Source: Plantactinospora sp. BC1 (GTDB taxonomy: Bacteria > Actinomycetota > Actinomycetes > Mycobacteriales > Micromonosporaceae). From it: a stretch of DNA of 64,000 nt. Positions 21,140 through 48,506 of this stretch are shown piece by piece. The position numbers and the translations under genes are program-made. The first letter of the stretch is position 1, and every line of letters starts with the position of its first letter. The notes under the pieces were generated by a model that was not told where the DNA came from, did no database searches, and saw only the letters and a list, made by a program, of their open reading frames with translations. The stretch lies in contig NZ_CP028158.1 of assembly GCF_003030345.1 (NCBI RefSeq), forward strand, positions 2,232,001 to 2,296,000, given 5' to 3'.

Positions 21140-21182
21140 ATCCTGCGACCCGCGGCTATACCAGCCCCATATCGAAACTATC
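21140..21182 (-). promoter_or_regulatory. SARP-type promoter of the sbnA-NRPS operon
   Basis: On the minus strand three pentamers are phased exactly 11 bp apart: GATAG (21182-21178), TATGG (21171-21167) and TATAG (21160-21156). A CAGGAT -10 hexamer follows at 21145-21140, 8 bp after the heptamer TATAGCC. The same architecture is found at 31824-31855 and 48389-48442. It lies 96-138 bp upstream of the sbnA start. Confidence 0.72.
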
Positions 21183-21194
21183 TTCGAAAACGAA

Positions 21195-21234
21195 CCGGGC
21201 TCCGCCACCTGAGGAAACAGGTGACGGAGCCCGG
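21195..21234 (-). terminator. Intrinsic terminator-like hairpin after the ABC exporter operon
   Basis: A near-perfect inverted repeat (arms CGGGCTCCG-CCACCTG and CAGGTG-A-CGGAGCCCG, loop AGGAAA) lies 20 bp downstream of the exporter permease stop and before the sbnA promoter. It would separate the two transcription units. There is no long U run, which is common in actinomycetes. Confidence 0.7.
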
Positions 21235-21254
21235 AAAGGGTCCGATGTGGGCGG

Positions 21255-23747
21255 TTATTCGCGTACGCCGGCCAGCTCGACCGCGCCGGACCGGAAGGCG
21301 AGCCGGACCGGTACCACCGCACCGAGTACGGCCAGCGCGGCGCTGACCACCGTGATCACCGCGACGGTGCCCCACGGCACGCTGACCGGGGTCGCCCCGA
21401 CGAGCTGCCCCAGGGCGAGCCGCAGCCCGGCCAGGTTCACCGCCGACGCCCCGACCGCGAGCAGCACCCCGACGCCGGCCACCAGCAGCGACTCGGCGGC
21501 GAAGACCCGGAGCACCTGTCGCGGGGTGGCGCCGGCCAGCCGCAGGATCGCCAGGTCCCGGAGCCGGTCCGAGGTCGCCATCACCAGCGTGTTGACGATG
21601 GCGATGAGGCAGAAGACGATCGCGATGCCGAGCACCAGCAGCATGCCCAGCGTGCTGGCCTGGCTGTTCTCGCTGCTCTCCTCGCCGAGCCAGTCCTCCG
21701 CCGCGACCGCCCGGGCACCCAGCCCGGCGGTGGCGCTGCCCAGCGCCGACCGGACGGCCGCCGCGTCGGTGCCGTCCTGCACCGAGACGTAGACCCGGCG
21801 GGCCAGGCCGGTGAAGGCGTACCTGGCGGTGCCGGCGTACTTCGTGCTCAGGTAGGCGACGTCGTTGCTGCCCGAGGTGGTGTCGAGCACCGCCACCACC
21901 CGCAGCGGCACGCTGCTGCCGTCGGCCATGAAGACCTCGACGGTCTCGCCGACCCCGACTCCCCAGTCGTCGTTGACGATGATGGTGTCGTCGCGCAGGT
22001 CGGCCGGGTTGCCCTCGTCGACCGGCAGGCTGAGGGTGCCCGACAGCGCCGCCGGGTCGACGGCCAGCGCCTCGTAGTCGGCGAGCCGGGCGTCGTCCCG
22101 GACGTACACCATGGTCGGCAGCGCGGCGACCACGTCGACGCCGGGGATCGCCCGGACCCGCTCGGTGACCGCCTCGTTGATCCCGGGCGTACCGTTCGGG
22201 GTGACCACGAAGTCGGCGGTGACCTGGTTGCGCCGGCCGCTGTCCTTGGCCCGGTCGATGGTGGCGGCGGCGCCGAGCAGCGAGATGGAGAGCCCGACGG
22301 TGAGCAGCACCGGCGCGGCGGTGGCCGCGGTACGCCGCACCGAGGTCAGCGCGCTCTCCCGGACCAGCATCCCGGCGGCACCGCGGAGCCGGCCGAGCGG
22401 CCAGGTGATCAGTCGGGCGATCGGCTTCACCACCACCGGGGCGAGCAGCGCGAAGGCGAGGATCGGCAGCATCAGCACCCCGATGTACCGGGTCGGCACC
22501 ATCACCATGCCCGGGTTCACCACCGCCACCCAGCCGATGGTGACCAGTCCGAAGGCGAGCGCGAGCAGGCCGTAGAGCCACCGGCCGGAGGTCATGGTGC
22601 GGGAGTCGACGGCGGCGTCCCGGAGCGCCTCGATCGGGCGTACGTCACCGGCCCGGCGGGACGCCGCCCAGACCCCGGCCAGCGCCACTCCCAGCCCCAC
22701 GCAGAAGGCGATCAGCAGCGGCACCCAGACCGCCGGCCCGGTGGAGAACCCGACGGTGAACCACGGCGGGGCGAGCCCCAGGTCGACCATCCAGCCGGCC
22801 AGCAGCGGCGCGACGGCGAGCCCGAGGGCGCAGCCGGCGACCGCGGAGGCGAGCCCGACCACGAACGCCTCGGTGAGCACCATCCGGCGTACCTGCCGGG
22901 GCGTGGCGCCGACCGTGCGGAGCAGGGCGATCTCCCGGCGCCGCTGGGCGACCGCGAAGGCGAAGGTCGAGGCGACCAGGAAGATCGAGACGAAGCCGGC
23001 GACCACGGCGGTGATCGGCAGCAGCGTCTGGGTGTTGTCGATCGCCTCCCGGTCGGCGTTGTAGCTCGGGTCGAGTACGTTGCGCCGCTGACCGGTGAGC
23101 ACCTCGGCGTCCCCGCCGACGGCCTGGCGTACCGCCTCCGGCGCCCCGTAGGCGACCAGCGCCTCGACCCGGGGCGAGAGCCGGGCCGCCTCGGCGTCGG
23201 TGAAGAAGACCGCGGACTCGAAGTCGGCCGGCGCCGTCACCCCGGCGACGGTGTAGTCGCGTGGCCCGCCGGTGGTGAAGACGGTGACCCGGTCGCCCGG
23301 CCCGGCACCGCCGCTCGGCACCACGACCTCGGTGTCGGCCTGCGGCGGCCGGCCGGCGGCCAGCGCGTACGGCGCGAACTCGGCGCTGGACCAGCCGTGC
23401 CCGACCTGGTCGTCGGGGCCGCCGGCGAGCTGGGCGTAGAAGTTGCGGACCGGTACCGTCCGGCCCAGCGCGCCGACCTCGGCGGCCAGCGCGTCGGAGA
23501 TGCCCCGGGCCTGGATCAGGGAGCGGCTGCCCGGATCGTGCCGGGCCGGATCCCACTCCGGGTCGAGCGCGGCGACCACCACCGGGGCGGCGGCGAACCG
23601 CTGCGGTGCCCGCTCGGGCAGCCCCAGGGTGGCGCCGATCTCCAGCCCCATCGCGGCGATCATGCCGGCGCCCAGGGTCAGCGCGACGAAGGTACCGACG
23701 AACGCGGCCCAGCGCACCCGCAGGGTCTGCAACGCGATGCTCAGCAC
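21255..23747 (-). CDS. ABC transporter permease, double FtsX (MacB/DUF214-type), 830 aa
   Basis: Membrane subunit of an exporter. The N-terminal transmembrane segment (FVGTFVALTLGAGMIAAMG) is followed by a large extracytoplasmic domain, an FtsX block around residues 250-360, a central hydrophobic stretch, a second extracytoplasmic domain and a second FtsX block at the C-terminus, as in the 800-residue actinobacterial FtsX permeases. It overlaps its ATPase partner by 7 bp. Exporters of this type are common in lipopeptide clusters, where they act in secretion or self-resistance; the role here is inferred from position. Confidence 0.92.
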   Translation of the reverse strand: MLSIALQTLRVRWAAFVGTFVALTLGAGMIAAMGLEIGATLGLPERAPQRFAAAPVVVAALDPEWDPARHDPGSRSLIQARGISDALAAEVGALGRTVPVRNFYAQLAGGPDDQVGHGWSSAEFAPYALAAGRPPQADTEVVVPSGGAGPGDRVTVFTTGGPRDYTVAGVTAPADFESAVFFTDAEAARLSPRVEALVAYGAPEAVRQAVGGDAEVLTGQRRNVLDPSYNADREAIDNTQTLLPITAVVAGFVSIFLVASTFAFAVAQRRREIALLRTVGATPRQVRRMVLTEAFVVGLASAVAGCALGLAVAPLLAGWMVDLGLAPPWFTVGFSTGPAVWVPLLIAFCVGLGVALAGVWAASRRAGDVRPIEALRDAAVDSRTMTSGRWLYGLLALAFGLVTIGWVAVVNPGMVMVPTRYIGVLMLPILAFALLAPVVVKPIARLITWPLGRLRGAAGMLVRESALTSVRRTAATAAPVLLTVGLSISLLGAAATIDRAKDSGRRNQVTADFVVTPNGTPGINEAVTERVRAIPGVDVVAALPTMVYVRDDARLADYEALAVDPAALSGTLSLPVDEGNPADLRDDTIIVNDDWGVGVGETVEVFMADGSSVPLRVVAVLDTTSGSNDVAYLSTKYAGTARYAFTGLARRVYVSVQDGTDAAAVRSALGSATAGLGARAVAAEDWLGEESSENSQASTLGMLLVLGIAIVFCLIAIVNTLVMATSDRLRDLAILRLAGATPRQVLRVFAAESLLVAGVGVLLAVGASAVNLAGLRLALGQLVGATPVSVPWGTVAVITVVSAALAVLGAVVPVRLAFRSGAVELAGVRE

Positions 23748-24484
23748 GCGCCGACCTCCATCCGGGTCATCCGGGCGGCGATCGTCTCCGCCGTCGGGTT
23801 GACCAGCTCACCGGCGAGCACCCCGTCGGCGAGGAAGACCACCCGGTCGGCGTTGGCGGCGGTCACCGGGTCGTGCGTGACCATCACGATGGTCTGCTGG
23901 TGCCGGTCGACCAGGCCGCGCAGCAGCGCCAGCACCTCCCGGCTGGTGCTGGTGTCCAGCGCACCGGTCGGCTCGTCGGCGAAGAGCACCGCCGGCTTCG
24001 TGACCAGGGCGCGGGCGATCGCCACCCGCTGCTGCTGGCCGCCGGAGAGCTGCGCCGGCCGGTGCCCGCCCCGGTTGCCGAGCCCCACCTCGGCGAGTAC
24101 CTCCGCCACCTCGGACCGGCTCGGCTTGCGGCCGGCCAGCCGCAGCGGCAGCGCCACGTTCTGCTCGGCGGTCAGCGACGGCAGCAGGTTGAAGGCCTGG
24201 AAGACGAAGCCGATCTTGTCCCGCCGGAGGAGCGTCAACGCGGTCTCGCTCAGCCCGGTCAGGTCGGTGCCGCCGATCACCACCCGGCCGCCGGTCGGCC
24301 GGTCCAGCCCGGCCGCGCACTGTAGGAGGGTCGACTTGCCCGAGCCGGACGGCCCCATGATCGCCGTGAAGCTTCCGGCCCGCAGATCGAGCGACACGCC
24401 TCTCAGGGCGGTCACCTCGTTCTGACCCGAACCGTACGTCTTGCTCAGCGACTCCAGCCGCACAGCCTGCTCCATAGCGAGCAT
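23741..24484 (-). CDS. ABC exporter ATP-binding protein (LolD/MacB type)
   Basis: ATPase of 247 aa with Walker [11 protein letters not shown]-loop FVFQAFNLLPSL, signature LSGGQQQR, Walker B VLFADEPTGALD and H-loop MVTHD. It pairs with the FtsX permease immediately downstream. Two in-frame ATGs (24484 and 24475) are possible and neither has a good Shine-Dalgarno. The 117-bp gap to the upstream C-domain gene shows no SARP-type repeat or clear terminator, so it may be read through from the lipid-activation operon or have a weak promoter of its own. Confidence 0.93.
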   Translation of the reverse strand: MLAMEQAVRLESLSKTYGSGQNEVTALRGVSLDLRAGSFTAIMGPSGSGKSTLLQCAAGLDRPTGGRVVIGGTDLTGLSETALTLLRRDKIGFVFQAFNLLPSLTAEQNVALPLRLAGRKPSRSEVAEVLAEVGLGNRGGHRPAQLSGGQQQRVAIARALVTKPAVLFADEPTGALDTSTSREVLALLRGLVDRHQQTIVMVTHDPVTAANADRVVFLADGVLAGELVNPTAETIAARMTRMEVGAC

Positions 24485-24601
24485 CCAATCACTGATCGTT
24501 AGATCGACACATGAGATACCACCCTGAGAACCCCCGGACCGGCGACCCTGAGGTGTCCCGGGTTTCGGGCGGTTCCCCCCGGGATCCGGGTGTTCCCCGG
24601 T

Positions 24602-26089
24602 TCACTGCCCGGGCGAGACGCCGCCGGTACCCAACGCGAGCAGTTGTTCCAGTTGTGCGCTGTCGACAAGGGAGACCCGGTCGATCCGGCGCGTCGGGTC
24701 GGCGGTAGCCGCCTCCAGCAGCCGGCGGTAGTGCCCGGTAAGCCGCTCTATGGTCGCACCGTCGAACAAATCCGTGTTGTACCGGAAGGCACCGGTGAAT
24801 GAATCCTCCGTCTGGCGCAGCTCCACGTTGAGGTCGAACTGCCCCTCCAGCTGCGGTACGTCGAACGCGGCCAGCCGAAGCCCCCGGTAGGAGATCTCCG
24901 GGCCCACGGCGGAGCCCTCCGGCACCAGTGGCAGCGGCGGGTCCAGCCGGTCCGCCGCGACCATCGTGAAGGCGATTCGGAACAGCGGCGACCGGGTGCT
25001 GCCCCGGGCCCCGCCGAGCATCCGGTCCAGCAGCGGGAACGGGTAGCCGACGTGGGCCAGTCCGGAGAGGAGTTCCCGGTGTGCCGCCGCCACCGCGTCG
25101 GCGAAGGTGGCCCCGGTGGCGAAGGACGAACGCAACACCAGGGTGTTGACCAGATAGCCGACCACCTCCCGCAGCCCCCGGCCGTGCCGGGTCGCCACCG
25201 GACAGCCGACCGCGAAGTCGTCCTGGCCGCCGTACCGGTACAGGGTGGCCTGGAAGACCCCGAGCAGGAAGGCGAACGGGGTCACCCCGGCCGCCGAGGC
25301 CGCCGCCCGGACCCGGGCCGCCAGCTCGTCGGGGAGCCGCAGGTGGTAGGTCGCCCCGTCGAAGGTCTGCCGCTCCGGTCGGGGCCGGTCGACCGGGATC
25401 GCCCCGGCCGACACGCCGGTGCAGCGATTCCGCCAGTACCGTTCCAGCCGCTCCCGTCGGGGCGAGTCGAGGAGTACCCGCTCCGCCTCGACATAGTCCA
25501 GGAAGCTGCCGGTCAGCGGCGCCCAGTCCGGTGCGCCACCGGCCGCGATCCCCTGGTATCCGGCCAGCAGGTCCCGCAGCAGCAGCCACTGCGAGGTGGC
25601 GTCGCTGATGATGTGGTGGGTGACCACGACCAGGGCGGCGTCCTCGGCGGAGCGGCGCAGCAGCACCACCCGGAAGACGTCGCCGGCACCGAGCCGGAAC
25701 GGCACCTCGCCGACCGACCGGGCCAGCCCGAGCAGCGCCTCGTCGGTGCGGCCCGGAACGTCCCGGACCTCCAGCCACCGGGAGCCGTCCGCCGGCCCGG
25801 CACCGGCCGGCGGGACGAACTGCCGGGGTACCCCGTCGACCTCGGCGAAGGCCGTGCCGAGCACCGGGTGCCGGGCCACCAGCGCGCCGACCGCCCGGCC
25901 CAGCGCCGCGACGTCCAGCGCGGACCGGACCCGGACCGCGAGGGTGATGTTGTACGCCGGGCTCTCCGGCGCGAGCTGGTAGAGGAACCAGAGCGCCTCC
26001 TGCCCGACCGAGAGTGGATGGCCGGGGCCGGACAGCGGACCGGCCGGCCCGGCCGCCGACTCGTCCGGGCGGATGCCCTGCACGGTCAT
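24602..26089 (-). CDS. Free-standing NRPS condensation domain (lipoinitiation, inferred)
   Basis: A 495-residue protein consisting of one condensation domain: N-terminal PLSVGQEALWFLYQL, catalytic motif HHIISDA, then DDFAVGCPVATRH and LVNTLVLRS in the C-terminal lobe. There is no carrier or adenylation domain. It overlaps the upstream ACP gene by 4 bp (ATGA), which points to that ACP as acyl donor. The first NRPS protein starts with A and lacks a C domain, so this protein most likely joins the fatty acyl group to residue 1 in trans. Confidence 0.9.
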   Translation of the reverse strand: MTVQGIRPDESAAGPAGPLSGPGHPLSVGQEALWFLYQLAPESPAYNITLAVRVRSALDVAALGRAVGALVARHPVLGTAFAEVDGVPRQFVPPAGAGPADGSRWLEVRDVPGRTDEALLGLARSVGEVPFRLGAGDVFRVVLLRRSAEDAALVVVTHHIISDATSQWLLLRDLLAGYQGIAAGGAPDWAPLTGSFLDYVEAERVLLDSPRRERLERYWRNRCTGVSAGAIPVDRPRPERQTFDGATYHLRLPDELAARVRAAASAAGVTPFAFLLGVFQATLYRYGGQDDFAVGCPVATRHGRGLREVVGYLVNTLVLRSSFATGATFADAVAAAHRELLSGLAHVGYPFPLLDRMLGGARGSTRSPLFRIAFTMVAADRLDPPLPLVPEGSAVGPEISYRGLRLAAFDVPQLEGQFDLNVELRQTEDSFTGAFRYNTDLFDGATIERLTGHYRRLLEAATADPTRRIDRVSLVDSAQLEQLLALGTGGVSPGQ

Positions 26090-26355
26090 CCCCGGGCGCC
26101 CAGCACGCCGTGCAGGTGCTTGGCGAGGGCGTTGACGCTCGGGTGGTCCCAGGCCATCGTGGGCTCCACCTCGATGTCGAACCGCTCCTCCACGTCCCCG
26201 CTCAGGGTCATCGCGTAGACCGAGTCGAGGCCGATCTCGACCAGCGGGGCGTCGGCGTCGATCTCCTCGGCCGACCGTTGCAGATAGAAGGCGATCCGGC
26301 CGACCAGCCAGCTACGGATGGCGTCGACGGAGGTGTCTTGGATGGTTCCGGACAT
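26086..26355 (-). CDS. Acyl carrier protein (lipid-loading), 89 aa
   Basis: Carrier protein with phosphopantetheine site GLDSVYAMTL (Ser45) and helical ACP pattern. The start at 26355 is set by AAAGGAG 6 bases upstream. It lies between two acyl-CoA dehydrogenases and the free-standing C domain, downstream of a fatty acyl-AMP ligase. In ramoplanin-type pathways such an ACP receives the acyl chain from the ligase, is the substrate of the dehydrogenases and presents the chain to the first C domain; the same role is inferred here. Confidence 0.92.
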   Translation of the reverse strand: MSGTIQDTSVDAIRSWLVGRIAFYLQRSAEEIDADAPLVEIGLDSVYAMTLSGDVEERFDIEVEPTMAWDHPSVNALAKHLHGVLGARG

Positions 26356-26387
26356 GGTGCACTCCTTTGGCGTACGGACGGAGACGG

Positions 26388-28109: not shown

Positions 28110-29935
28110 CGGGCTGCCACCTCGGAAAGCTCTGCGGCCGGCTCGGCGGAGCGCGCCGCGGGCTCGGACGTCTGCGGGCCCGCCTCGGCGAGCCGGGCCG
28201 GGAGCAGGGAGAAGAGCCGGCCCTCCCGGTGCTGGGCCCGCAGGTCCGGCAGCAGCCGGTCGTAGTCCTCGCCGTCGTCGGTCTCGGAGCCGGTCCCGGC
28301 GGCCGGGCGGAGCTGCCCGATCAGCCGGTGCAGGCAGGCGCGCAGCCAGCGGGCGTCCGCCCAGAGCGGGGCGGTCGGGCCGTCGGAGAGCCAGTGCCGG
28401 TTGCGCAGCCAGAGTTGCAGGCAGGCGGCGGCGGCGAAGGCGAGCGCGTACTCGCCGGCCATCGCGAACGCCTCGGCCGGCACCTGCCGGGGCTGCGGCC
28501 GGTACGCGGCCATCCGCTCGTGCAGCCGGTCGACCAGCCCGGCCAGCGTCTCGGCCTGGCCGGCCAGCGCCTGCGGGGCGATGCCGGCGTCGACGAGTTC
28601 CAGTACCTCGGCGACGGCGACCGGCAACCGCTGCACCACGCTGCACCCGGTCCGGGAGAGCAGCGCCAGCCGGCTCCGGTCGAAGTCGGGCAGCGGCCGG
28701 GCCAGCTCGACGGTGTCGGCCAGCCCGGGGTCGACCACGCCCCGCCGGTATCCGCGTACCAGGCCCGGGAACTGGTTGACCAGGGTGTTCAGGTTGACCA
28801 GGGTGTTGCCGTCGAAGATGCCGACGATCCGGTGGTCGCGTTCGATCTTCTGGAACAGCCCGTCGGCGTGGTCGGCGGTGAGCAGGGCGCGGGCCCCGAG
28901 CACCTGGCCCAGCCTCGGGATGGTCCGGTCCATCATCGTCGGCACCAGGTATTTGGCGACCGCCGAGGTGACGCTCAGCTCGCCGGGGATGGCGTGGATG
29001 CCGCGCGCGGTCAGCATGCTGGTGGCCTCACCGATCAGCAGGTCGACGTACGCCTCGGTGAGGGTGCGGTTCGCGTGCGGCAGGTCGACCAGCGGCCGGT
29101 CGTAGAGCCGGTGCCCGGTGGCGAAGTCGAGGACCAGCCGCAGCGCCTGGTCACCCAGGCCGAGCGACATCGCCGCGCACATGGTGCGGGTGAGCTGGAC
29201 GCTCTTCAGCACGATCTCCGGGCCGACGCCGGTCGAGCCGACCAGTGCGTCGGCCGGCACCTCGGCGCCGGTGAAGGCGATCCCGCTGATGTCCGCCCCG
29301 CGTACCCCGTGGGTGCGCTCCTTGGGCAGGCAGCGGAAGGTGCCGGGGGCGAGCCGCCGCTTGTCCACCATCAACAGGCTGAAGCCCCGAGTGCCGCCGG
29401 CCGGTTCGGTCCGGGCGAGTACGCAGACCACGTCCCCCCGGCTGGCGTTGTTGATCAGCCACTTCTCGCCGTCGACCCGGTAGCCGTCCCCGGTCGGCAC
29501 CGCCGACACCTCACCGGCGAGCAGGTCGCTGCCGTGCTCCCGCTCGGTCAGCGCCAGCGAGATCACGCTGCCGGCGAGCACCTCGGCACCGACCCGGCGG
29601 GCCTGCTCCGGGGTGGCGCCGACCCAGGCCGAGACGGCACCGAGGTAGGTCTTGCCGTGCCCGATCGCGACGGTCAGGTCCCGGCGGGCCAGGATCCGCA
29701 CCGCGTGCAGCAGCTCCTCGTAGTCGCGCAGCTCGCCGCCGAACTCGGCCGGCACGTACCAGCGGGGCAGGCCGAGCCGGTCCAGCTCGGCGCAGATCTC
29801 GGCCGGGAACTCCTCCCGGGCGTCCAGCGCGACGCAGCGGGCGAACGAGGCCGGCCGGTCCGGGTCGTGCGGGTCGCCGAGGCCGTGGTCGAGATGCTCG
29901 GCGAGGGCGAAGGCCGGATAGCGCATCCCGGTCAC
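28106..29935 (-). CDS. Acyl-CoA/acyl-ACP dehydrogenase, long form (609 aa)
   Basis: Flavin-dependent acyl desaturase of the type found in lipodepsipeptide clusters such as ramoplanin and enduracidin. Core motifs: LALTEREHGSDL (flavin/substrate loop), WLINNASRGD, and GIFDGNTLVNLN at the position of the catalytic carboxylate segment (Asp in place of Glu). A C-terminal extension of about 200 residues follows. The gene overlaps the fatty acyl-AMP ligase stop (ATGA) and precedes a second dehydrogenase. The inferred task is to introduce an alpha,beta double bond (with its partner perhaps a diene) into the ACP-bound chain. Confidence 0.88.
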   Translation of the reverse strand: MTGMRYPAFALAEHLDHGLGDPHDPDRPASFARCVALDAREEFPAEICAELDRLGLPRWYVPAEFGGELRDYEELLHAVRILARRDLTVAIGHGKTYLGAVSAWVGATPEQARRVGAEVLAGSVISLALTEREHGSDLLAGEVSAVPTGDGYRVDGEKWLINNASRGDVVCVLARTEPAGGTRGFSLLMVDKRRLAPGTFRCLPKERTHGVRGADISGIAFTGAEVPADALVGSTGVGPEIVLKSVQLTRTMCAAMSLGLGDQALRLVLDFATGHRLYDRPLVDLPHANRTLTEAYVDLLIGEATSMLTARGIHAIPGELSVTSAVAKYLVPTMMDRTIPRLGQVLGARALLTADHADGLFQKIERDHRIVGIFDGNTLVNLNTLVNQFPGLVRGYRRGVVDPGLADTVELARPLPDFDRSRLALLSRTGCSVVQRLPVAVAEVLELVDAGIAPQALAGQAETLAGLVDRLHERMAAYRPQPRQVPAEAFAMAGEYALAFAAAACLQLWLRNRHWLSDGPTAPLWADARWLRACLHRLIGQLRPAAGTGSETDDGEDYDRLLPDLRAQHREGRLFSLLPARLAEAGPQTSEPAARSAEPAAELSEVAAR

Positions 29936-31764
29936 CCCCGCCCGGCCGGCACCGGCTGCGCGGCCCGCCCGGCCCGGTAGCGGTCCCGGACCTCCGGATC
30001 GAGATCCTCGTACGTCGCGTCGAGCACGCCGGAGACGAAGAGTTCCCGCATCATGGTGCGCTGGATCTTTCCGCTGGTGGTACGCCGGACCTGACCGACC
30101 CGGACGAAGACGACGTTCGCCACCCGGAGCCCGAGGATCCGGCTCAGCGTCGACTTGACCGCACCGGCCAGCCCGGCGATCTCGGCGGCGTCCCGGGCCC
30201 GGGTGCGCAGCTCCTGGACCACCACGATCTCCTCCCGGGGCGCCGGCACCGAGAAGACCGCGCAGGGCAGCCCGGCGAACGCCTCGGCGACCTCCCGGAC
30301 CTCCCGCTCCACGTCGTGCGGGTAGAGGTTGCGGCCGTGCACGATCATCATTTCCTTGATCCGGCCGGTGACGTACAGCTCGCCGTCGTCGAGGGTGCCG
30401 AGGTCACCGGTACGCAGGAAGCCGCCGTCGCCGTCCGCGGTCACCGCGCCGAAGGCCCGCCGGGTCGCCTCCGGGTCCCCCCAGTAGCCTCGGGTCACGC
30501 TGCCGCCCCGGATCCACACCTCGCCGACCCGGCCGTCCGGCAGCACCGTGGAGGTGCCGGGGTCGATGATCCGTACGTCCAGCGCGTTGACCCGGCCGCT
30601 GCCGACCAGGGCCAGCCCGGAGGGCGTACCGGCGGGCAGCGGGGTGAAGACGTCCCGGGCCAGCTCGGCGGGGTCGACGTACGCCGTCACCGGGGCACCG
30701 GCCGGGCGGGCCCCGGTGACGCAGAGCGTCGCCTCGGCCAGCCCGTACGTCGGCAGGAACGACTCGTAGCGGAAACCGGCCGGGGCGAACCGGGCGGCGA
30801 ACCGCTCCAGGGTGGCCGGGTCGATCGGCTCGGCACCGTTGCAGGCGTACCGCCAGCGGGACAGGTCCAGCGCGGCGACCTGCTCGTCGGTGAGCAGCCG
30901 GGCGCAGAGGTCGTACGCGAAGTTCGGCGCGCAGGCCACCTCGGCGCCGTACCGGTCGATCGCCTCCAGCCACAGCTGCGGCCGCTTGAGGAAGTCGTTC
31001 GGCCGGATCAGCACGGCGGTGCTGCCGAGATAGAGCGGCGCGATCAGCATCGCGATCAGGCCCATGTCGTGATAGAGCGGCAGCCAGCTACAGAACCGGG
31101 TCTGGTCGGTCCAGCCGAGGGTGCGGTGCACCGAGCCGATGTTGTGCAGCACGTTGCCGTGGGTGACCATCACGCCCTTCGGGTCGCTGGTCGAGCCCGA
31201 GGTGTACTGGAGGAACGCGATGTCGTCGGGACGGGCCGGATACGGCAGCCACCCGTCCGCGGCCGTCCCGGCACCGTCGGTCGGCTCCCCGCCCGGGTCG
31301 CCCGCGCCGCCGCCCCCACCCGGGGCGTCCAGGTCGGTCGCCGCGAAGGCCAGGTGGTCCAGTCCCTCCTGGAGCATCCAGTCGTCGACCGCGCCCAGGT
31401 TCCCCGGATCGGTCAGCACCACCGCCACGTCCGCGTTCCGGGCGATCGCGCTGGTCCGGTCGGCGTGGTGCCGGTAGTTCGCCGGCAGCGGCACCGGCAC
31501 CGGGATCACGCCCGCGTAGAGGCAGCCGAGGAAGCCGGCCACGAACTCCAACCCGGTCGGATACAGCAGCAGCGCCCGGTCACCCGGCCGGCACCGCCGG
31601 CCCAGCCAGGCCGCCGTCGACCGGGCCGCCCGGTCGAGTTCGGCGTACGTCAGGGACGTCTCGACGAACCGCTCCCCCGCACCACGGCAGAACACCACCG
31701 CCTGCCGTTCCGGCGATCCGGCCACGTTGTGCCGGACCGCCTCGACGATGCTTCCCTTGGACAC
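29932..31764 (-). CDS. Fatty acyl-AMP ligase (FAAL), 610 aa
   Basis: Adenylate-forming enzyme with TSGSTSDPKGVMVTH (A3), the FAAL hallmark LPLYHDMGLI, LPTYGLAEATL (A5), GELYVTGRIKEM (A8) and C-terminal SGKIQR Lys. FAALs activate a free fatty acid as acyl-AMP and load it on an ACP without CoA. I choose the GTG at 31764 (VSKGSIVEAV) with GGGGAA upstream; the in-frame ATGs further upstream lie inside the promoter. It heads the FAAL-dehydrogenase-dehydrogenase-ACP-C operon. Its presence implies that the polyketide-type chain is released as free acid before re-activation. Confidence 0.93.
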   Translation of the reverse strand: MSKGSIVEAVRHNVAGSPERQAVVFCRGAGERFVETSLTYAELDRAARSTAAWLGRRCRPGDRALLLYPTGLEFVAGFLGCLYAGVIPVPVPLPANYRHHADRTSAIARNADVAVVLTDPGNLGAVDDWMLQEGLDHLAFAATDLDAPGGGGGAGDPGGEPTDGAGTAADGWLPYPARPDDIAFLQYTSGSTSDPKGVMVTHGNVLHNIGSVHRTLGWTDQTRFCSWLPLYHDMGLIAMLIAPLYLGSTAVLIRPNDFLKRPQLWLEAIDRYGAEVACAPNFAYDLCARLLTDEQVAALDLSRWRYACNGAEPIDPATLERFAARFAPAGFRYESFLPTYGLAEATLCVTGARPAGAPVTAYVDPAELARDVFTPLPAGTPSGLALVGSGRVNALDVRIIDPGTSTVLPDGRVGEVWIRGGSVTRGYWGDPEATRRAFGAVTADGDGGFLRTGDLGTLDDGELYVTGRIKEMMIVHGRNLYPHDVEREVREVAEAFAGLPCAVFSVPAPREEIVVVQELRTRARDAAEIAGLAGAVKSTLSRILGLRVANVVFVRVGQVRRTTSGKIQRTMMRELFVSGVLDATYEDLDPEVRDRYRAGRAAQPVPAGRG

Positions 31765-31823
31765 GTTTGTTTCCCCGGCTTCTCCGCACGGCGTCCACCG
31801 CGCCATCGGCGTTTCCGTGGCAG

Positions 31824-31855
31824 ACCGTACGATCGACGTCCATATTCGGGCTATA
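31824..31855 (-). promoter_or_regulatory. SARP-type promoter of the FAAL operon
   Basis: Minus strand: TATAG (31855-31851) and TATGG (31844-31840) are 11 bp apart. A TACGGT -10 lies at 31829-31824, 8 bp after the heptamer TATGGAC. Spacing is identical to the other two cluster promoters. It lies 60 bp upstream of the FAAL GTG, just after the isomerase stop. Confidence 0.65.
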
Positions 31856-31864
31856 TCAACGGGC

Positions 31865-32611
31865 TCAGCCGCAGCCGCCGGCATGCCCCTCGTCGGTCCG
31901 GCCCGGCGCACCCACCGGCACCGGCTCCGGTGCCGCCCCCTCACCGTTCCCCGGCACCTGCGGCGGCTCGGCGGGACGGGGCTTCGCGGTCCCGCGCTTG
32001 GCGGCGACCGAGGCGGCGAACGCGGCCAGCCGGTCCACCCCCCAGAACCGGTCGAAGCCGTGTACGAAGAACGGCACCCCGAACACGCCGTCGCGGTAGA
32101 TGTCGAGCAGCGCCCCGACGCCCTGGCGACGTACCTCCGGATCGTCCGCCGCCCCGGAGACCTCGGCCGGGTCGAGCCCCAGCTCGGCGGCGATCTCGGC
32201 GACCGTGGACCGGTCGCAGATGTTCCGCCCCTCCTCCCACCTGGCCCGGTACGCCCGCTCCAGGTAGGCCGGTCCGGCACCGTGCCGCGCCGCCACCAGG
32301 TAGCCGAGGTGCGGGATCTCCCAGACCGGCTCCCGGTCGACCGGCCAGCTGAACGTCAGCCCGCGCTCGGCGGTGAGCCGCCGGACGTCCTGGAGCACGT
32401 AGAGGTGCTTGGCCCGGGACATCGCGGTGTAGACGAACTCGCCGCCGGCCTCGGCGAGCAGCCGCGAACTCTGCTCGTCCGGCTCCCAGAACGGCACCCA
32501 GTCCAACTCGGACACTAGCTCCGGATACCGCTGGTGCAGGTCCCGGTAGGCGAGCCAGGAGTACGGGCTGCGCAGGCTGAAGTAGAACCGTGGGGTGCGG
32601 CGCACCGCCAT
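31865..32611 (-). CDS. DsbA/2-hydroxychromene-2-carboxylate isomerase-like protein (248 aa)
   Basis: Thioredoxin-fold protein of the DsbA/GST-kappa (HCCA isomerase) group: N-terminal RFYFSLRSPYSWLAYRDL has the SPYS active-site loop without a CxxC pair, and FGVPFFVHGFDRFWG is the cis-Pro region. ATG 32611 has GAGGAG upstream. The C-terminal 40 residues are Pro/Gly-rich and variable, ending in CG. HCCA isomerases catalyse glutathione-dependent cis-trans isomerisation; related genes occur in clusters for polyene and cinnamoyl acyl chains, where double-bond isomerisation is proposed. A redox role cannot be excluded. Confidence 0.75.
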   Translation of the reverse strand: MAVRRTPRFYFSLRSPYSWLAYRDLHQRYPELVSELDWVPFWEPDEQSSRLLAEAGGEFVYTAMSRAKHLYVLQDVRRLTAERGLTFSWPVDREPVWEIPHLGYLVAARHGAGPAYLERAYRARWEEGRNICDRSTVAEIAAELGLDPAEVSGAADDPEVRRQGVGALLDIYRDGVFGVPFFVHGFDRFWGVDRLAAFAASVAAKRGTAKPRPAEPPQVPGNGEGAAPEPVPVGAPGRTDEGHAGGCG

Positions 32612-32644
32612 GGGAAACTCCTCGGGTGCTTCGGGGCGGGCGCG

Positions 32645-33391: not shown

Positions 33392-33399
33392 GTCGCTCC

Positions 33400-35939: not shown

Positions 35940-35949
35940 CGTCGGCACC

Positions 35950-38341: not shown

Positions 38342-38344
38342 GAC

Positions 38345-39460: not shown

Positions 39461-39471
39461 CTCTCTCCCTC

Positions 39472-42661: not shown

Positions 42662-43647
42662 CGACGCGTACTCGGAGCAGCCGGCGTGCCTTCCAGCGCG
42701 CTGGCGAGACGGTCGTCGAAGTCCACCAGGCTCCAGTCGCGGCGGTTCTCGATCACCGCGTACCCGTGGGTGATCTTCCCCGTGGCGGTCGGCACCAGGA
42801 TGCCGTCCCGGAGCACGTAGCAGTCCATCCGCGAGGTGTAGGTGAGCCGCTTGAAGACGTTCTCGACGGTGAAGACGGTGTAGAGGTCCTCCTCCATCCG
42901 CGCCTCGTCCAGGATGGTGATCCGGGAGTGCGGCACCACCGGGATCCAGTCCTGCTCGTCCAGCAGCCGCTTGATCGAGACGTTCCGGTCGGCCAGGAAG
43001 AGGTCGACGACCTCCTCCATCTGCCGCAGGTAGCCGGACATCTGCATCCGCTCGGTGAAGTGGCAGTAGAAGTACGGGATCCGCCACTTCCAGGCGTACG
43101 CGTTGCGCCCGGCGGTGAGCCCGGCCAGCAGGTCGCCCTCGGGCGCCGGACCGGAGGCGGCCGGCCGGGTCACCTTGACCGGCGACTGCCCCAGCCGGGA
43201 CACCGTGTACGGGGCAAGCTCGGCCGGCACCTGCTGCACCGGGTGCCCGTGCGGGTCGAGGCGCAGCTCCACCCGGACCTTGGCGGTGACCGCCTTGATC
43301 GGCGGTGCGCCGTTGACCGAGATCTCCACCGCGAAGGCGAGCGCGTCGCCGGGCAGCGGCCGGACCTCGGCGGTCGCCACGTCGTCGATGTGGAAGGCGT
43401 GGGTGATCCGGCTGTCGATGTCGACGATGTCGACGCAGAGGCCGTGCCGCTCGTAGAGCCCGCCGGGCGCGAAGCCGCGCTGCCGCAGGTGGTCGAGGAC
43501 GGCCTCCTCGACCAGGTAGTTGACGTGCTTGAAGCCGATCCAGGTGCAGATGTTGGACCCCTCGTACCGGGGCCGCAGCTCCACACGGGTCACGCCGTCC
43601 GCGGCTGGTTCGGAGACGGGACGGGGTGCCAGGGTCGTCGAGTTCAC
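42658..43647 (-). CDS. Hot-dog-fold acyl thioesterase-like protein (329 aa)
   Basis: I recognise the fold only. Residues about 35-130 (WIGFKHVNYLVEEAVLDHL, then a long beta region) resemble the 4HBT thioesterase hot-dog, and a second similar half follows (YFYCHFTERMQMSGYLRQM to the C-terminus). The start is GTG 43647, overlapping the hydrolase stop (GTGA). In a type II acyl system, candidates are chain-releasing thioesterase, editing thioesterase or another dehydratase-like hot-dog. No catalytic residue can be assigned with confidence. Confidence 0.6.
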   Translation of the reverse strand: MNSTTLAPRPVSEPAADGVTRVELRPRYEGSNICTWIGFKHVNYLVEEAVLDHLRQRGFAPGGLYERHGLCVDIVDIDSRITHAFHIDDVATAEVRPLPGDALAFAVEISVNGAPPIKAVTAKVRVELRLDPHGHPVQQVPAELAPYTVSRLGQSPVKVTRPAASGPAPEGDLLAGLTAGRNAYAWKWRIPYFYCHFTERMQMSGYLRQMEEVVDLFLADRNVSIKRLLDEQDWIPVVPHSRITILDEARMEEDLYTVFTVENVFKRLTYTSRMDCYVLRDGILVPTATGKITHGYAVIENRRDWSLVDFDDRLASALEGTPAAPSTRR

Positions 43648-44573
43648 GTGCGCTCCAGGTGTGTGTCGAGGATCGGTTCCGGGCTTGTGTCGGGGGGCGA
43701 CAGCGGGTGGGCGAAGTCCGCCACCAGGGCGGCGAACCGGTCGGGGTGCTCGGCCATCGCGAAGTGGCCGCAGTCGGCGAGCAGGGCGTACCGGCCGGCG
43801 GGTGCGGCGTCGGCGAGCGCCCGCCCGTCGCCGGGCCGGGCGGCGAAGTCGCCGTCGCCGGAGATCACCAGCAGCGGCAGCGCCAGGTCGGCGACGGGCA
43901 GGAACGGGGTACGCAGGTAGGCGTCGAAGAAGCGCATCCAGCCGTACGGGCCGATCCGCTCCCGGACCCGCTCGCCCATCGCGACGCGTACCTCGGCGGG
44001 CAGCCCGGCCGGGGCGCTGACCCGGATCCCCTCTTCGAGGATCCGGTGGAAGTGGTTGAGATAGAAGTCGATCGCCGCCCAGTCGAAGTCGTCGGCGGCC
44101 GGTCGGTAGAAGGGCGAGACCAGCACCACCGCCCGGGGCAGCGGCATCGCGCCCGCAACCGTCGGAGCCATCGCCATCGCCGGCCGGATGGTCTCCGGCT
44201 CCGCCGGCCCGCCGACCCGGCCGGCCCGGCCGAGCAGCTCCAGCAGGGTGTTCGCGGCGAACGAGTGCGCGACCACCAGGTCCGCGCCGCCGGGGACCGC
44301 GGCCAGCGCCTGCGCCGCCGCGCCGGTGGCGTCGGCCCGGTGGCTCCAGCCGGTGTCGCCGGCGCTCGCCCAGGGCAGCTCGGCGTCCCACAGCTCCAGC
44401 CAGGCGGGTGCCCGCGACTCGAAACGGTCCCAGATGGCCCGGCTGCTGCCGAGGCCGTGCAGCAGCAGGGTGCGCACCGGTCGGGTGCCGGCACCGGGCC
44501 GCCGGCACCGGACCGGTACCCCGGTCCCGTGCGGCAGGGCGCGGTCCGGTCTCGGCGGCGCGGAGGTGCTCAT
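43644..44573 (-). CDS. Alpha/beta hydrolase (309 aa)
   Basis: Serine hydrolase with LLLHGLGSSR (oxyanion), nucleophile Ser104 in VAHSFAAN, acid in VISGDGDFA and His in CGHFAMAEHP. In this setting it could hydrolyse finished acyl chains from an ACP, giving the free acid needed by the fatty acyl-AMP ligase, or act as an editing thioesterase. It overlaps the ketosynthase-like gene upstream (ATGA). Confidence 0.85.
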   Translation of the reverse strand: MSTSAPPRPDRALPHGTGVPVRCRRPGAGTRPVRTLLLHGLGSSRAIWDRFESRAPAWLELWDAELPWASAGDTGWSHRADATGAAAQALAAVPGGADLVVAHSFAANTLLELLGRAGRVGGPAEPETIRPAMAMAPTVAGAMPLPRAVVLVSPFYRPAADDFDWAAIDFYLNHFHRILEEGIRVSAPAGLPAEVRVAMGERVRERIGPYGWMRFFDAYLRTPFLPVADLALPLLVISGDGDFAARPGDGRALADAAPAGRYALLADCGHFAMAEHPDRFAALVADFAHPLSPPDTSPEPILDTHLERT

Positions 44574-45541
44574 CGCCGGTCTCCCCCGGCGGTCAGCAGC
44601 AGCGCGGCCGCCGCGTCCGAACCGTCGCCGTCGGCGGTGGCGAGTACGGCACCCCGGTCGTGCCCGTTCAGCCAGGCGGTACCGGCGACGCACTGGAGCA
44701 CGCCGAGCGCCCCCGAGCAGTGCCCGTGGTACGCGGTCAGGTCGTGGCTGGTCTGCTCGGTCATCCCGGTCGGTCCACCCGCCCCGGCCCCGAACCACAT
44801 GTCCACCGGACGCGGGTCGGTACGCCGGATCGCGGCCACCGCCGCCGGCTGGTCCGCCTTGCGGGCGTACGGGCCGAGTTCGGCGAGCGCCTCGACGCCC
44901 CGGTCCCGGACCGCCGTCGCCGACTCCAGCACCAGCGCCGCGGCACCGTCGAAGAGCCGGAGGTCGTCGTCGTCCTTGCTCCGGCCGCCGCTGACCAGGT
45001 GCCGGACCGGCGCGTTCGCCGGTTCGACCCCGACCACCAGCACCCGGTCGACCCGGCCGGCCAGCACCAGCAGCCGACCCCAGTTGACCGCGTCCAGTCC
45101 GGAGGTCGCCCCGTTGCACATGGTCAGGTTGGCGCCGCGCAGCCGGAACCAGATCGCCAGCCAGGACGCGATCACGTTGCTCGCGGTGGCCGGCAGGTTC
45201 ATCGGGCTCAGCCCGACGTAGGTCTCCTCGGCGATCGTCGACACCGTGTCGCAGACCGTGTCGACGTTGCCGTAGTTGGAGCTGACCACCACGCCGACGG
45301 TCTCGCCGGGGACGGTCAGGCCCGGGTCGCCGAGCAGTCCGGCGTCGGCGAGCGCGTCCCGGCCGGCGCAGAGGGCGAGCCGGGTGGCCCGGTCCTTGTA
45401 GCGCAGTCCCTTGCGGTCCAGGCGGCGGGTCGGGTCGTCGCCGTCGGCACCGGCCGGGGTACGCCGGAGCAGGTCGTCGGGGCCGGCGATCCCGGAGACC
45501 GCCACCCCCACCCCGCTGACCACCACGTCGACCGGAGCCAT
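44570..45541 (-). CDS. Short ketosynthase-like protein with Ala at the Cys position (323 aa)
   Basis: Beta-ketoacyl synthase homologue about 60-80 residues shorter than its relatives. The nucleophile segment reads MCNGATSGLDAV (Ala145 for Cys), the HGTGT block is missing, and a GHCSGALG block keeps one His. It starts one base inside the stop of the active ketosynthase upstream (TGATG). It may be a partner subunit of that enzyme or a starter-unit/decarboxylase component. Confidence 0.8.
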   Translation of the reverse strand: MAPVDVVVSGVGVAVSGIAGPDDLLRRTPAGADGDDPTRRLDRKGLRYKDRATRLALCAGRDALADAGLLGDPGLTVPGETVGVVVSSNYGNVDTVCDTVSTIAEETYVGLSPMNLPATASNVIASWLAIWFRLRGANLTMCNGATSGLDAVNWGRLLVLAGRVDRVLVVGVEPANAPVRHLVSGGRSKDDDDLRLFDGAAALVLESATAVRDRGVEALAELGPYARKADQPAAVAAIRRTDPRPVDMWFGAGAGGPTGMTEQTSHDLTAYHGHCSGALGVLQCVAGTAWLNGHDRGAVLATADGDGSDAAAALLLTAGGDRR

Positions 45542-46683
45542 CAGGACACCTTCTCCACGATCGCGACGGCGTTCAGTCCGCCGAAGCCGAACGAGTCCAC
45601 CTGGGCGACCCGCAGGGTGGCCAGCTCGGCGTGCTCGCGTACCAGTCGGAAGCCGTCGACCTCGTCGATCGGGTTCTCCAGGCCGAGGATCGGCGGCACC
45701 ACGCCGGAGCGCAGCGCCTCGACCGCCACCACCAGGCTGTGCAGCCCGGAGGCACCGGCGGTGTGCCCGGTCATCGACTTGATGGCGGTCATGTACGGCG
45801 AGGGCGACACCCCGGAGTAGACCTCCCGGACGGCCTGCGCCTCGGCCTCGTCGTTCAGAGCCGTACCGGTGCCGTGCAGCATCAGCAGGTCGACGTCGGC
45901 CGGCTCCACCCCGGCCCGCCGGTGCGCCTCCCGGGTGACCAGGGCGATGCTCTTGGCGTCCGGCGCCGATGGGTGGTACGCGTCGCAGTTCACCGCCACG
46001 CCCCGGACCCGGGCGTGCCGGTGCCCGGCACCGGGGCCGTCGGCCTCCCGGCGCAGCACCACGGCGACCGCGCCCTCGCCCTGGAGCATGCCCCGGCGGT
46101 CCCGGTCGAACGGCCGCACCTGCTCGGGCGCCTCCGCGTAGCAGCGGTCCAGCAGCCCGTAGGTGCTCTCGGTGATGGTGTCGACCCCGGCCACCACGAC
46201 GGTGTCGGCGACACCGAGGTCGAGCAGGTCCATGCCGAGGCCGAGGGTGTAGAGCGAGGCCGAGCAGGCGTTCGCCACGGTGTGCGTGTCGGTGGCTCCG
46301 AACCGCTTCCGCAGCGCGCTGCCGAAGTGCAGGTCGCGGGCGTCGAACGGCACCCCGTCGCGCCAGCTCAGCTCGACCGAGCGCAGTTCCCGCAGGGTGG
46401 TGCCGACCAGCACCGGGGTGTCGCCGAGGTCGCCGTCGAGGCCGGCGTCGGCCAGCGCGGCAGCGACCGCCTGCTCCAGCCACCGGCTGGCCCGCAGGGT
46501 CTCGTCGCAGCCGGGACCCGGCCGGTCGTCGATCTCGTACGCGTGCTGCGCCCGGTAACGGGAGCGGTCGAAGCCGCGCAGTTCGGCCAGCCCGCTGTAG
46601 CCGGCGCAGAGCGAGTCGAAGAACTCGACGGTACTGCCGCCGATGCTGGCCACCGCGCCCATCCCGACCACCAGCGCGGTCAT
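45541..46683 (-). CDS. Beta-ketoacyl-ACP synthase (active Cys-His-His, 380 aa)
   Basis: Condensing enzyme with Cys140 (ANACSASLYTLG), LHGTGTALND and MTGHTAGASG. The sequence around the Cys differs from the other two active ketosynthases, suggesting a different acyl preference. It is linked by ATGA to the upstream ketosynthase and by TGATG to the short Cys-less homologue, with which it may pair. Confidence 0.9.
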   Translation of the reverse strand: MTALVVGMGAVASIGGSTVEFFDSLCAGYSGLAELRGFDRSRYRAQHAYEIDDRPGPGCDETLRASRWLEQAVAAALADAGLDGDLGDTPVLVGTTLRELRSVELSWRDGVPFDARDLHFGSALRKRFGATDTHTVANACSASLYTLGLGMDLLDLGVADTVVVAGVDTITESTYGLLDRCYAEAPEQVRPFDRDRRGMLQGEGAVAVVLRREADGPGAGHRHARVRGVAVNCDAYHPSAPDAKSIALVTREAHRRAGVEPADVDLLMLHGTGTALNDEAEAQAVREVYSGVSPSPYMTAIKSMTGHTAGASGLHSLVVAVEALRSGVVPPILGLENPIDEVDGFRLVREHAELATLRVAQVDSFGFGGLNAVAIVEKVS

Positions 46684-47930
46684 GGCGTCACCTCGTCGTA
46701 CCTGCCGAGGATCAGCACCGCGTTGTTGCCGCCGAAGGCGAGCGCGTTGTTCTGCACCACCCGCAGATCGGCGTCCTGGGCCACGTTCGGTACGCAGTCG
46801 AGCCCGCACTCGGGGTCGGTCTCGACGTGGTTGATGGTCGGCGGGATGAATTTGTGGGTGATCGCCAGGGCGCAGGCGGCCGAGGCCAGCGCACTCGCCG
46901 CCCCCATGGTGTGCCCGATCATTCCCTTGATCGAGACCGTCCGGGGCGCCCCCTGCCCGAAGACCTGCCGGATGGCGCCGGCCTCGGTGACGTCGTTCGC
47001 CTTGGTCCCGGTGCCGTGCGCGGAGATGAAGTCGATGTCCTCCGGCTTCACCCCGGCGTTGCGGTGGGCCAGCTCGATGCAGCGGGCGATGCTGTTCTGG
47101 TCCGGCGCGACCGGGTGGTACGCGTCGCAGTTGAGCCCGTAGCCGAGCACCTCGGCGTAGATCCGGGCACCCCGGGCCCGGGCCGAGTCGAGGCTCTCCA
47201 TCAGCAGGATGCCGGCGCCCTCGCCGGTGAGGATGCCCTTGCGGTTGCGGTCGAACGGCTGGCACGCCTCCGGGGCGATGGTGCCGAGCCGGTAGAAGCC
47301 GGTGAAGGTCTTCCGGCACAGCGCGTCGGCACCGCCGCAGAGGGCGACGTCCACGTCACCGCTGCGGATCGCGTCCAGGCCGTACCCGACGGCGTAGTTG
47401 CCGGCCGCGCAGGCGGTCGGGATCGTCACCGCCTCGACATCGGTCAGCCCGAGTTCGGCGACGATGCTCGACGAGAGGCGGCCGGCGGGAACCCGACGCG
47501 CCACGACCGGGTCGAAGTGTTCCGCACCCCGGTCGACCTGGACCCCGACCAGTTGGTCGAGGTCGTGCGATTCGCCGTCCGTGGTTCCCACCGACACCAG
47601 TGCGCGGCGGGACCGCAGCTCCCCGAGAGACATGCCCGCGTCCGCGACCGCCATGCCGGCGGCGGCGGCCGAGAGCTGGCTCGCCCGGCCGAGCTGTGCC
47701 GGGTCGACGTTGTGCAGCCAGCGGGCCGGGTCGAAGTCGGTGATCTCGCACCCGTTGGCGTACGCGAACCCGGTCGTGTCGAACGCGGTGATCGGCTTGA
47801 CCCCGCTCCGACCGGCCCGCAGTCCGGCGAGAAACTTCTCGACCCCGATTCCGATGCTGGTCACCACGCCGAGCCCGGTGACGACCACCCGGCGGGGCGA
47901 TCGAGCATCGCCTGGCAGAACGCTCATCAT
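46680..47930 (-). CDS. Beta-ketoacyl-ACP synthase II-like (FabF, 416 aa)
   Basis: Full-length FabF-type enzyme with Cys174 (PTACAAGNYA), SAHGTGTKAND and IGHTMGAAS, and a C-terminal NNALAFGGNNAVL. It is the second gene of the operon, after an ACP. The start is one of two adjacent ATGs at 47930 and 47927, behind GTGAGGCGCG. Confidence 0.95.
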   Translation of the reverse strand: MMSVLPGDARSPRRVVVTGLGVVTSIGIGVEKFLAGLRAGRSGVKPITAFDTTGFAYANGCEITDFDPARWLHNVDPAQLGRASQLSAAAAGMAVADAGMSLGELRSRRALVSVGTTDGESHDLDQLVGVQVDRGAEHFDPVVARRVPAGRLSSSIVAELGLTDVEAVTIPTACAAGNYAVGYGLDAIRSGDVDVALCGGADALCRKTFTGFYRLGTIAPEACQPFDRNRKGILTGEGAGILLMESLDSARARGARIYAEVLGYGLNCDAYHPVAPDQNSIARCIELAHRNAGVKPEDIDFISAHGTGTKANDVTEAGAIRQVFGQGAPRTVSIKGMIGHTMGAASALASAACALAITHKFIPPTINHVETDPECGLDCVPNVAQDADLRVVQNNALAFGGNNAVLILGRYDEVTP

Positions 47931-47985
47931 CGCGCCTCACTCACCTGTAGTCCTCCGACCCGACTCCGCCGTCCGCGCGACGCGC

Positions 47986-48252
47986 TCAGGCGTTCGACGC
48001 CTCGCCGACGACGGCGTAAACGCCCTGCAGATTCACCATTCGGCTCAGTTCCGCCTGGTCGATCGTGACGTGCAGATTCCGCTCCAGGGCGGCGAGAATT
48101 TCGATCGCGAGCAGCGAGTCGGCACCGTGGTCCTCTTTGAACAGACTGGTCTCGGTGACCTCGTCCGCGTCGATTTCCAGAATCTCGCAGACGATCTCCT
48201 TGACCTGCTCGCGGTCGATGTCGGTGCTGGTGGTGGGGGTCGTGCTGCTCAT
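47986..48252 (-). CDS. Acyl carrier protein, first gene of the polyketide operon (88 aa)
   Basis: Type II ACP with HGADSLLAIE (Ser45). The ATG at 48252 is fixed by GGAGGCGAC immediately upstream; a longer in-frame extension upstream lacks a ribosome binding site and overlaps the promoter. It is the probable main carrier for chain extension. Confidence 0.94.
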   Translation of the reverse strand: MSSTTPTTSTDIDREQVKEIVCEILEIDADEVTETSLFKEDHGADSLLAIEILAALERNLHVTIDQAELSRMVNLQGVYAVVGEASNA

Positions 48253-48388
48253 GTCGCCTCCAGAAACGGATCGGTTGAGTGAATATCTCGATGACTGGCC
48301 TTGGCTGGCGGCGCCGTGCGCCTCACCGCCCGATACCGTTTGCCGCCTCGGCCGTCTGGCGGCACCATCGGATCGCGGTACTGTCCCG

Positions 48389-48442
48389 AGTCTGTGAGCC
48401 GCGACTATATTTCTCCTATATGGCGACGGGCGGTCCGCCATA
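48389..48442 (-). promoter_or_regulatory. SARP-type promoter of the polyketide/ACC operon
   Basis: Minus strand: TATGG (48442-48438), TATAG (48420-48416) and TATAG (48409-48405) lie on an exact 11-bp phase (22 and 11 bp). A CAGACT -10 follows at 48394-48389, 8 bp after the heptamer TATAGTC. It lies 137-190 bp upstream of the ACP start, in the 254-bp divergent region shared with the histidine phosphatase gene. Confidence 0.75.
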
Positions 48443-48506
48443 TCCACCGCCGGACTCCGGTAACGAGTGAAGCGATCGCCGCCCGTACGGATGGCAGGGT
48501 GGGGAC

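Follow-up and report, generated by a model that had tools for sequence, protein, structure and literature searches.

Which regulator controls the biosynthetic gene cluster of Plantactinospora sp. BC1 that carries phased TATRG pentamers ahead of its gene runs, and what sequence does it read? We examined a 64,000-nt stretch of this genome (NCBI RefSeq assembly GCF_003030345.1, contig NZ_CP028158.1, positions 2,232,001 to 2,296,000; hereafter, the window), in which such pentamers recur at three places, P1, P2, and P3. Comparison of sequences within and beyond the genus indicates that P1–P3 are very probably the operator-promoters of one cluster-situated activator of the SARP family and that TATRG is probably the repeat sequence that a distinct clade of SARPs recognizes.

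Three promoters with phased TATRG repeats

The promoters were read on the minus strand, and positions are window coordinates. P1 (48389..48442) carries TATGG at 48442 and TATAG at 48420 and 48409, with a putative −10 hexamer, CAGACT, at 48394–48389; it lies upstream of an operon of acyl carrier protein (ACP) and ketosynthase (KS) genes of the type II fatty-acid/polyketide kind. P2 (31824..31855), upstream of the operon headed by a FAAL-type AMP ligase gene, has TATAG at 31855, TATGG at 31844, and a putative −10 TACGGT at 31829–31824. P3 (21140..21182), upstream of sbnA, sbnB, MbtH, and nonribosomal peptide synthetase (NRPS) genes, has TATGG at 21171, TATAG at 21160, and a putative −10 CAGGAT at 21145–21140. 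A third P3 repeat, GATAG at 21182, was absent from an earlier, sequence-only reading of this DNA and is conserved in five of the five cluster-bearing genomes described below. Direct inspection bore out that reading's phased pentamers ahead of ACP, FAAL, and sbnA as well as its three hexamers at one fixed distance from the last repeat: each yAnnnT begins 15 nt past the first T of the last TATRG. All three sites are intergenic, in the gaps preceding ACP (ATG 48252), FAAL (GTG 31764), and sbnA (GTG 21044), and they contain 7 of the 10 minus-strand TATRG pentamers of the window. The longer motif proposed earlier, TATRGnC, holds for its TATRG core, but the trailing nC is present in only four of seven repeats. 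The proposed 11- or 22-bp phase holds at P1–P3, with P1’s 22-bp element being 23 bp in one of five genomes.

This arrangement agrees with the SARP operator-promoter geometry given in the AfsR structure paper (PMC10936776), where repeats lie 11 or 22 bp apart and 8 bp separate the 3′ repeat from the −10 element. Provided that yAnnnT represents the −10, the 8-bp distance is found at all three window sites and at a fourth site described below. The repeat sequence is unusual, as had been claimed: it matches none of four known SARP heptamer classes (GTCAGSS, CGGCAAG, CGTTYATCG, and the TCGAGC type that the earlier reading had named) and has the TATRG core instead.

Could A+T-rich pentamers simply have coincided in promoter gaps? 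TATRG-N6-TATRG occurs three times in the 8.33-Mb genome, only at P1, P2, and P3 and at no random position, where composition predicts ∼4 genome-wide (0.03 in the window, both strands) and the backward control of the pair gives six copies. The bare pair is thus not in excess, and the same holds across 28 genomes (97 copies vs. 138 backward controls), which speaks for coincidence; we therefore did not use the pair alone as evidence. The improbable part is that every genome copy falls in one ∼58-kb cluster, on one strand, between genes, and with yAnnnT at a constant offset. Rough, after-the-fact probabilities are ∼3e-7 for the copies lying within the cluster and ∼4e-7 for the hexamers lying at a given offset. 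Strand, place, and hexamer offset, together with conservation in five genomes, a fourth site that was predicted and then confirmed, and recurrence of the sites before relatives of the same genes, leave chance an exceedingly improbable explanation.

We searched for the full pattern, TATRG-N6-TATRG-N10-yAnnnT, in seven genomes of the genus and found 3, 0, 3, 3, 3, 0, and 2 copies, with no backward-control match in any of them. The two genomes without the pattern also lacked a FAAL match at E ≤ 1e-100. The P1 and P3 patterns were matched in all five cluster-bearing genomes, and P2 is identical in four; in the fifth, G006, its second repeat is TAGAG, which is the one missing copy. Motif conservation in the alignments was 1.0, 1.0, and 0.94, compared with 0.23–0.77 for the upstream flanks, and the downstream flanks gave 0.48–0.80. 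When the fourth site is included, all four are kept in position in the five genomes, in some of which individual repeats are degenerate. In G006, the orthologue of FAAL (G006:C1:2441924-2443312, in L103) matches residues 148–610 only, and this partial match together with the degenerate P2 repeat suggests that the FAAL operon there may be changing or decaying.

The cluster SARP and a fourth site

The phased repeats had been taken to predict one missing SARP, to be looked for left of the window. In the 18 kb fetched from that side (L001), we located such a gene inside the cluster: the open reading frame (ORF) at L001:8558-10744, 7.3–9.4 kb left of window base 1, encodes ∼650 aa with Trans_reg_C, BTAD, and NB-ARC domains and thus a SARP with an ATPase domain. 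As in the SARP family, an N-terminal OmpR-type DNA-binding domain (PF00486, 1.6e-8) is followed by the BTAD domain (PF03704, 3.6e-48); no TPR domain was matched in the Pfam scan. The best of 28 BTAD stretches in this genome (G000) scored 4e-49 at G000:C1:2223716-2224150 on the minus strand, and the next BTAD matches lie 149 kb leftward and 258 kb rightward. The gene sits between AMP-ligase and TEII genes and hence within the cluster. An orthologue is present in all five cluster-bearing genomes (91–99% identity in the four others), sharing a contig with the sites in three of those four and lying on a different contig of the draft in G002. The AMP ligase directly upstream of the SARP gene (L001:10531-12327, minus strand) is a second FAAL-like enzyme, 52% identical to the first, and G002 also holds a second pairing of a FAAL-like AMP ligase with a SARP of the clade described below (G002:C42:14672-21781; L109, L228).

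A weight matrix trained on 14 sites of other genera, with the window and its genus left out, scored the three window sites at 35.4, 27.1, and 17.1; the best other window position, at 62462, reached 15.6. Left of the window, one position in 18 kb scored above 11: L001:14926-14895, TATCG-N6-TATAG, 3.1 kb from the window, with a score of 24.4. This fourth site precedes a TauD-TauD-AMP ligase-SARP-TEII run and is in place in all five cluster-bearing genomes (scores 22.6–28.1), with the upstream side of the surrounding stretch diverging. Because the run that it precedes includes the SARP gene, the SARP likely activates its own transcription.

We then compared the putative register with that of AfsR. 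In the AfsR complex, each protomer touches 8 bp at the start of an 11-bp repeat; T-38 is contacted by R92, and binding is lost when A replaces either T-38 or its counterpart T-27 (PMC10936776). With yAnnnT assumed to occupy −12 to −7, the first T of each TATRG falls at −38 and −27. R67 of the cluster SARP aligns with AfsR R92 and is arginine in 40 of 41 members of its clade (lysine in one) and in 25 of 78 other SARPs; Q60 and R80 are each present in 41 of 41 members, as against 15 and 14 of the 78, respectively. The register can therefore equal that of AfsR while the remaining recognition surface differs, which fits a different heptamer.

Further likenesses to AfsR, a large SARP of Streptomyces coelicolor (PDB 8hvr, 8k60, and 8jke), and its afsS promoter include a full-length alignment of the SARP domain (E 1.5e-44), an ATPase (NOD/NB-ARC) domain that follows it, and two 11-bp direct repeats that end 8 bp before a poor −10 of yAnnnT form, CACTGT (PMC10936776). 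However, the AfsR repeat is given as CGTT(T/C)ATCGNN (PMC10972967), and AfsR is a global regulator with TPR, whereas the SARP studied here is cluster situated. Small SARPs of the PapR2/RedD type share heptamers with 4-bp spacers and activation of antibiotic clusters but read GTCAGSS and lack an ATPase domain (PMC7040171). The SARP-LALs PimR, SanG, and PolR share two or three heptamers, an 11-bp period, and cooperative binding of monomers, but their heptamer is CGGCAAG, and the main operator of PimR lies clear of the −35 box (PMC5930380). Medium-sized SARPs such as Fzm_SARP have the same order of DNA-binding, BTAD, and NTPase domains and a similar length (665 aa; PMC12692060). Our searches of open-licence papers turned up no TATAG/TATRG-type SARP operator and no cluster of this type; the promoter geometry and the protein family are already known, and the TATRG operator code is apparently new.

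From the computed sites and their geometry, we infer binding and activation as follows. Two (or three) SARP protomers would line one face of the DNA at the TATRG repeats, which are spaced by 11 bp and stop 8 bp short of a poor −10 (yAnnnT). Like AfsR, the bound SARP would then substitute for a good −35 box by keeping RNA polymerase at the promoter. It would turn on three operons, namely, the ACP/fatty-acid type II genes, the FAAL operon, and the sbnA-NRPS operon, and through the fourth site, it would turn on its own gene, a self-reinforcing on-switch for an antibiotic-type gene cluster that the NB-ARC domain may gate. The earlier interpretation, SARP promoters under one cluster SARP, is thus supported at the level of sequence comparison.

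One SARP clade and the TATRG motif across the family

Is the motif tied to this SARP elsewhere? We searched 354 genomes of the bacterial family (Micromonosporaceae) and counted 67 matches of the full pattern in 44 genomes, 53 of them outside the genus, compared with 10 backward-control matches. The 53 were covered by 44 regions, each at most 20 kb long and in some cases cut short by a contig end; 24 of these hold a SARP or part of one. The bare TATRG pair is absent from all 40 control regions around other SARPs (20 from the window’s own genome and 20 from site-bearing genomes). A tree of 72 SARP domains places 23 of the 29 rows that are site-linked or orthologous in a single clade (support 100/99), which contains none of the other 43. 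The yAnnnT hexamer stands at the matching offset in 48 of the 97 pairs in the 28 genomes and in 1 of the 138 backward controls. Because every one of these genomes was chosen for having such a site, we dropped one site per genome, and 20 of the 69 pairs left still had the hexamer (p 5e-10). A 12-bp instead of an 11-bp spacing gave two matches in the same 28 genomes.

The reverse test started from the protein. SARPs were ranked by similarity over the 354 genomes, and 40 new regions were taken, comprising all listed matches down to ∼203 bits and some lower ones; the clade then had 41 members, 18 of them new (quick tree, support 96). A site scoring at least 16 was present in 11 of the 18 new clade regions and in 1 of 62 other SARP regions (22 near and 40 control; p 3e-8), and a strict TATRG pair was present in 5 of 18 and 0 of 62; shuffled clade regions reached 16 in 2 of 90 cases. 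The corresponding counts were 12 vs. 10 at a cut-off of at least 10, 11 vs. 3 at 12, 11 vs. 2 at 14, and 9 vs. 1 at 18. The test was not wholly blind: 7 of the 18 regions came from genomes with earlier pattern matches, and L240–L242 had a site known ∼10 kb away. Without L240–L242, the count is 9 of 15, and without all seven regions from prematched genomes, it is 6 of 11 (p 2e-5).

Sites also recur before relatives of the same genes. We listed sites scoring at least 16.5 in 35 regions that had been selected because they hold a site or a clade SARP (34 come from other genera, and one is a second G002 cluster) and compared the downstream genes with 23 query proteins; the TEII query was out of frame, and we make no claim from it. 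The 58 rows include 3 repeats, leaving 55 sites, of which 47 have a match to a window-cluster protein within 2.6 kb downstream (tblastn E ≤ 1e-5) and 8 do not. Among the 47, 7 are weak matches of 31–34% to a generic reductase, 1 is a 28% NRPS match, and 3 lie >1.1 kb away. Directly after 11 sites stands sbnA, at 66–69% identity and in three further genera (groups g9, g24, and g31); TauD directly follows 4 sites (g4 and g24), ACP-KS follows 2 (g11 and g14), and FabA/KR and MbtH-NRPS follow others. Cluster-gene matches extend to eight genus groups, the window’s included (g1, g4, g9, g11, g14, g23, g24, and g31); in g26, a clade SARP has sites, but no cluster gene was matched. Gene order varies among the fetched clusters, yet the operators still head the corresponding units.

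These distributions bear on two other candidate binders. OmpR-family regulators also use 11-bp direct repeats, and an OmpR/PhoB-type response regulator gene lies at 57938-58594 (minus strand), 9.5 kb right of P1 and right of the cluster. Its relatives (phmmer E ≤ 1e-20) occur in none of the 18 clade-SARP site regions, in 1 of the 44 site regions, and in 1 of the 40 controls, whereas clade SARPs strongly co-occur with the sites; we therefore rejected this protein as the binder, a role that we consider very unlikely for any regulator of its type. Alternatively, another regulator co-inherited with the cluster family could bind the sites, with the SARP as a passenger. Clade, sites, and cluster genes do travel together, so that their association alone is no proof of binding and does not tell the SARP from a passenger. 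Against a passenger role, the geometry and register agree with the AfsR complex, the clade has its own recognition-helix residues, and a scan of a subset of the ORFs of this one cluster gave no match to any other regulator family. We regard a passenger SARP as unlikely, if somewhat less so than a response regulator.

Besides this co-inheritance, several observations weigh against control of the sites by the TATRG clade. P2, with 17.1, scores close to the background position at 62462, and the first repeat of the fourth site is TATCG rather than TATRG (TAGAG in G002). Twenty of the 44 site regions hold no SARP, and 6 site-near SARPs fall outside the clade, which suggests that some matches are due to chance or to other specificities. 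Many clade rows are near-copies, with about ten separate lineages counted by eye. The cut-off of 16 is one of five tabulated, and 7 of the 18 new clade regions have no site reaching it: the L240 site lies just outside its region, the L220 site is 22-bp spaced, and the other five have none.

Control of a family of diaminopropionate-lipopeptide-type clusters by a TATRG-reading SARP subfamily is nevertheless the best reading of these comparisons. We think it likely that the bacterial family contains a separate SARP subfamily with a code of its own (TATRG with an 11-bp period, read by helix residues Q60/R67 and wing residue R80), retained with one diaminopropionate/type II fatty-acyl NRPS cluster family through rearrangement, its operator standing before sbnA, ACP-KS, TauD, FabA/KR, and MbtH-NRPS units in eight genera. 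SARPs frequently serve as on-switches of antibiotic clusters, but the heptamer that a given SARP reads is known for few of them (the CGTT(T/C)ATCGNN, GTCAGSS, and CGGCAAG classes). The alignment of one clade with one motif and one cluster family makes the link from recognition helix to operator directly testable. Over-expression of the SARP gene should activate the lipopeptide-type cluster from all four promoters, which suggests a usable switch, and the TATRG motif can locate sister clusters; if the subfamily reading is true, the code alone could find and switch on diaminopropionate/type II fatty-acyl NRPS clusters.

Two minor observations concern the limits of the motif. In L116, L123, and L124, SARP domains from outside the clade begin within ∼70 bp of a divergent TATRG site, and these are either a second SARP lineage reading TATRG or chance matches. 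Outside the family, 12 of 394 genomes of the class match; besides our own genome’s 3, a hand count gave 12 matches spread over 11 genomes, compared with 27 for the backward control, which is background. Two well-formed TATAG-TATAG sites occur in another family of the class (G485:C1:1267627 and G612:C1:4310900, group g70).

Cluster genes and further features at P1

Operon extents were drawn from strand and spacing and gene content from Pfam scans; they suggest that the cluster comprises three minus-strand operons headed by P1, P2, and P3. The first gene after P1 is the ACP gene (47986..48252; 88 aa), whose ATG lies 136 nt past the −10 and whose PP-binding match was made on the longer ORF 47986-48447. 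The P1 operon further contains ketosynthases, reductases, acetyl-CoA carboxylase subunits, another ACP, FabA-like dehydratases, a ketoreductase (KR), and a DsbA-like gene. The FAAL gene (29932..31764; 610 aa) starts 59 nt past the −10 of P2, with the AMP-binding match on the longer ORF 29932-32280, and is accompanied by acyl-CoA dehydrogenases, an ACP, a condensation domain, and an ABC transporter with an FtsX permease. We also looked at relatives of FAAL in named genomes; the seven actinobacterial loci examined (80 fetched) hold one SARP and no site scoring 14, and they thus look like other clusters.

P3 is followed by the sbnA-like gene for a pyridoxal phosphate enzyme (19953..21044; 363 aa, GAAGGGA before its GTG start; PALP) and the sbnB-like gene (18927..19943; OCD_Mu_crystall), which together presumably make diaminopropionate. 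MbtH, NRPSs, and an MFS transporter belong to the same unit; the NRPS genes (2477..18639) encode 1,708 and 3,679 aa, and a long ORF in the same direction runs beyond the left window end. The gene run behind P3 goes on past the left window end with the two TauD oxygenases, the second AMP ligase, and the SARP, followed by a thioesterase and an FAD oxidoreductase. Judged from this gene content, an acyl peptide containing diaminopropionate is the probable product.

Two further features touch P1. Between P1 and the start of ACP, the leader (48382-48252, minus strand) contains the conserved blocks GTACCGCGATCCGATGGTGCCGC and CGGCAAACGGTATC, which are partly complementary; we dropped an RNA leader structure as a candidate because the single-sequence fold did not outperform shuffled sequences (z 0.16). 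An inverted repeat, ATATGGCG-N10-CGCCATAT, at 48443-48418 (minus strand) overlaps the upstream half of P1, with TATGG 48442 in one of its arms. It is conserved in the five cluster-bearing genomes of the genus, with N11 in one, and is possibly the operator of a second regulator.

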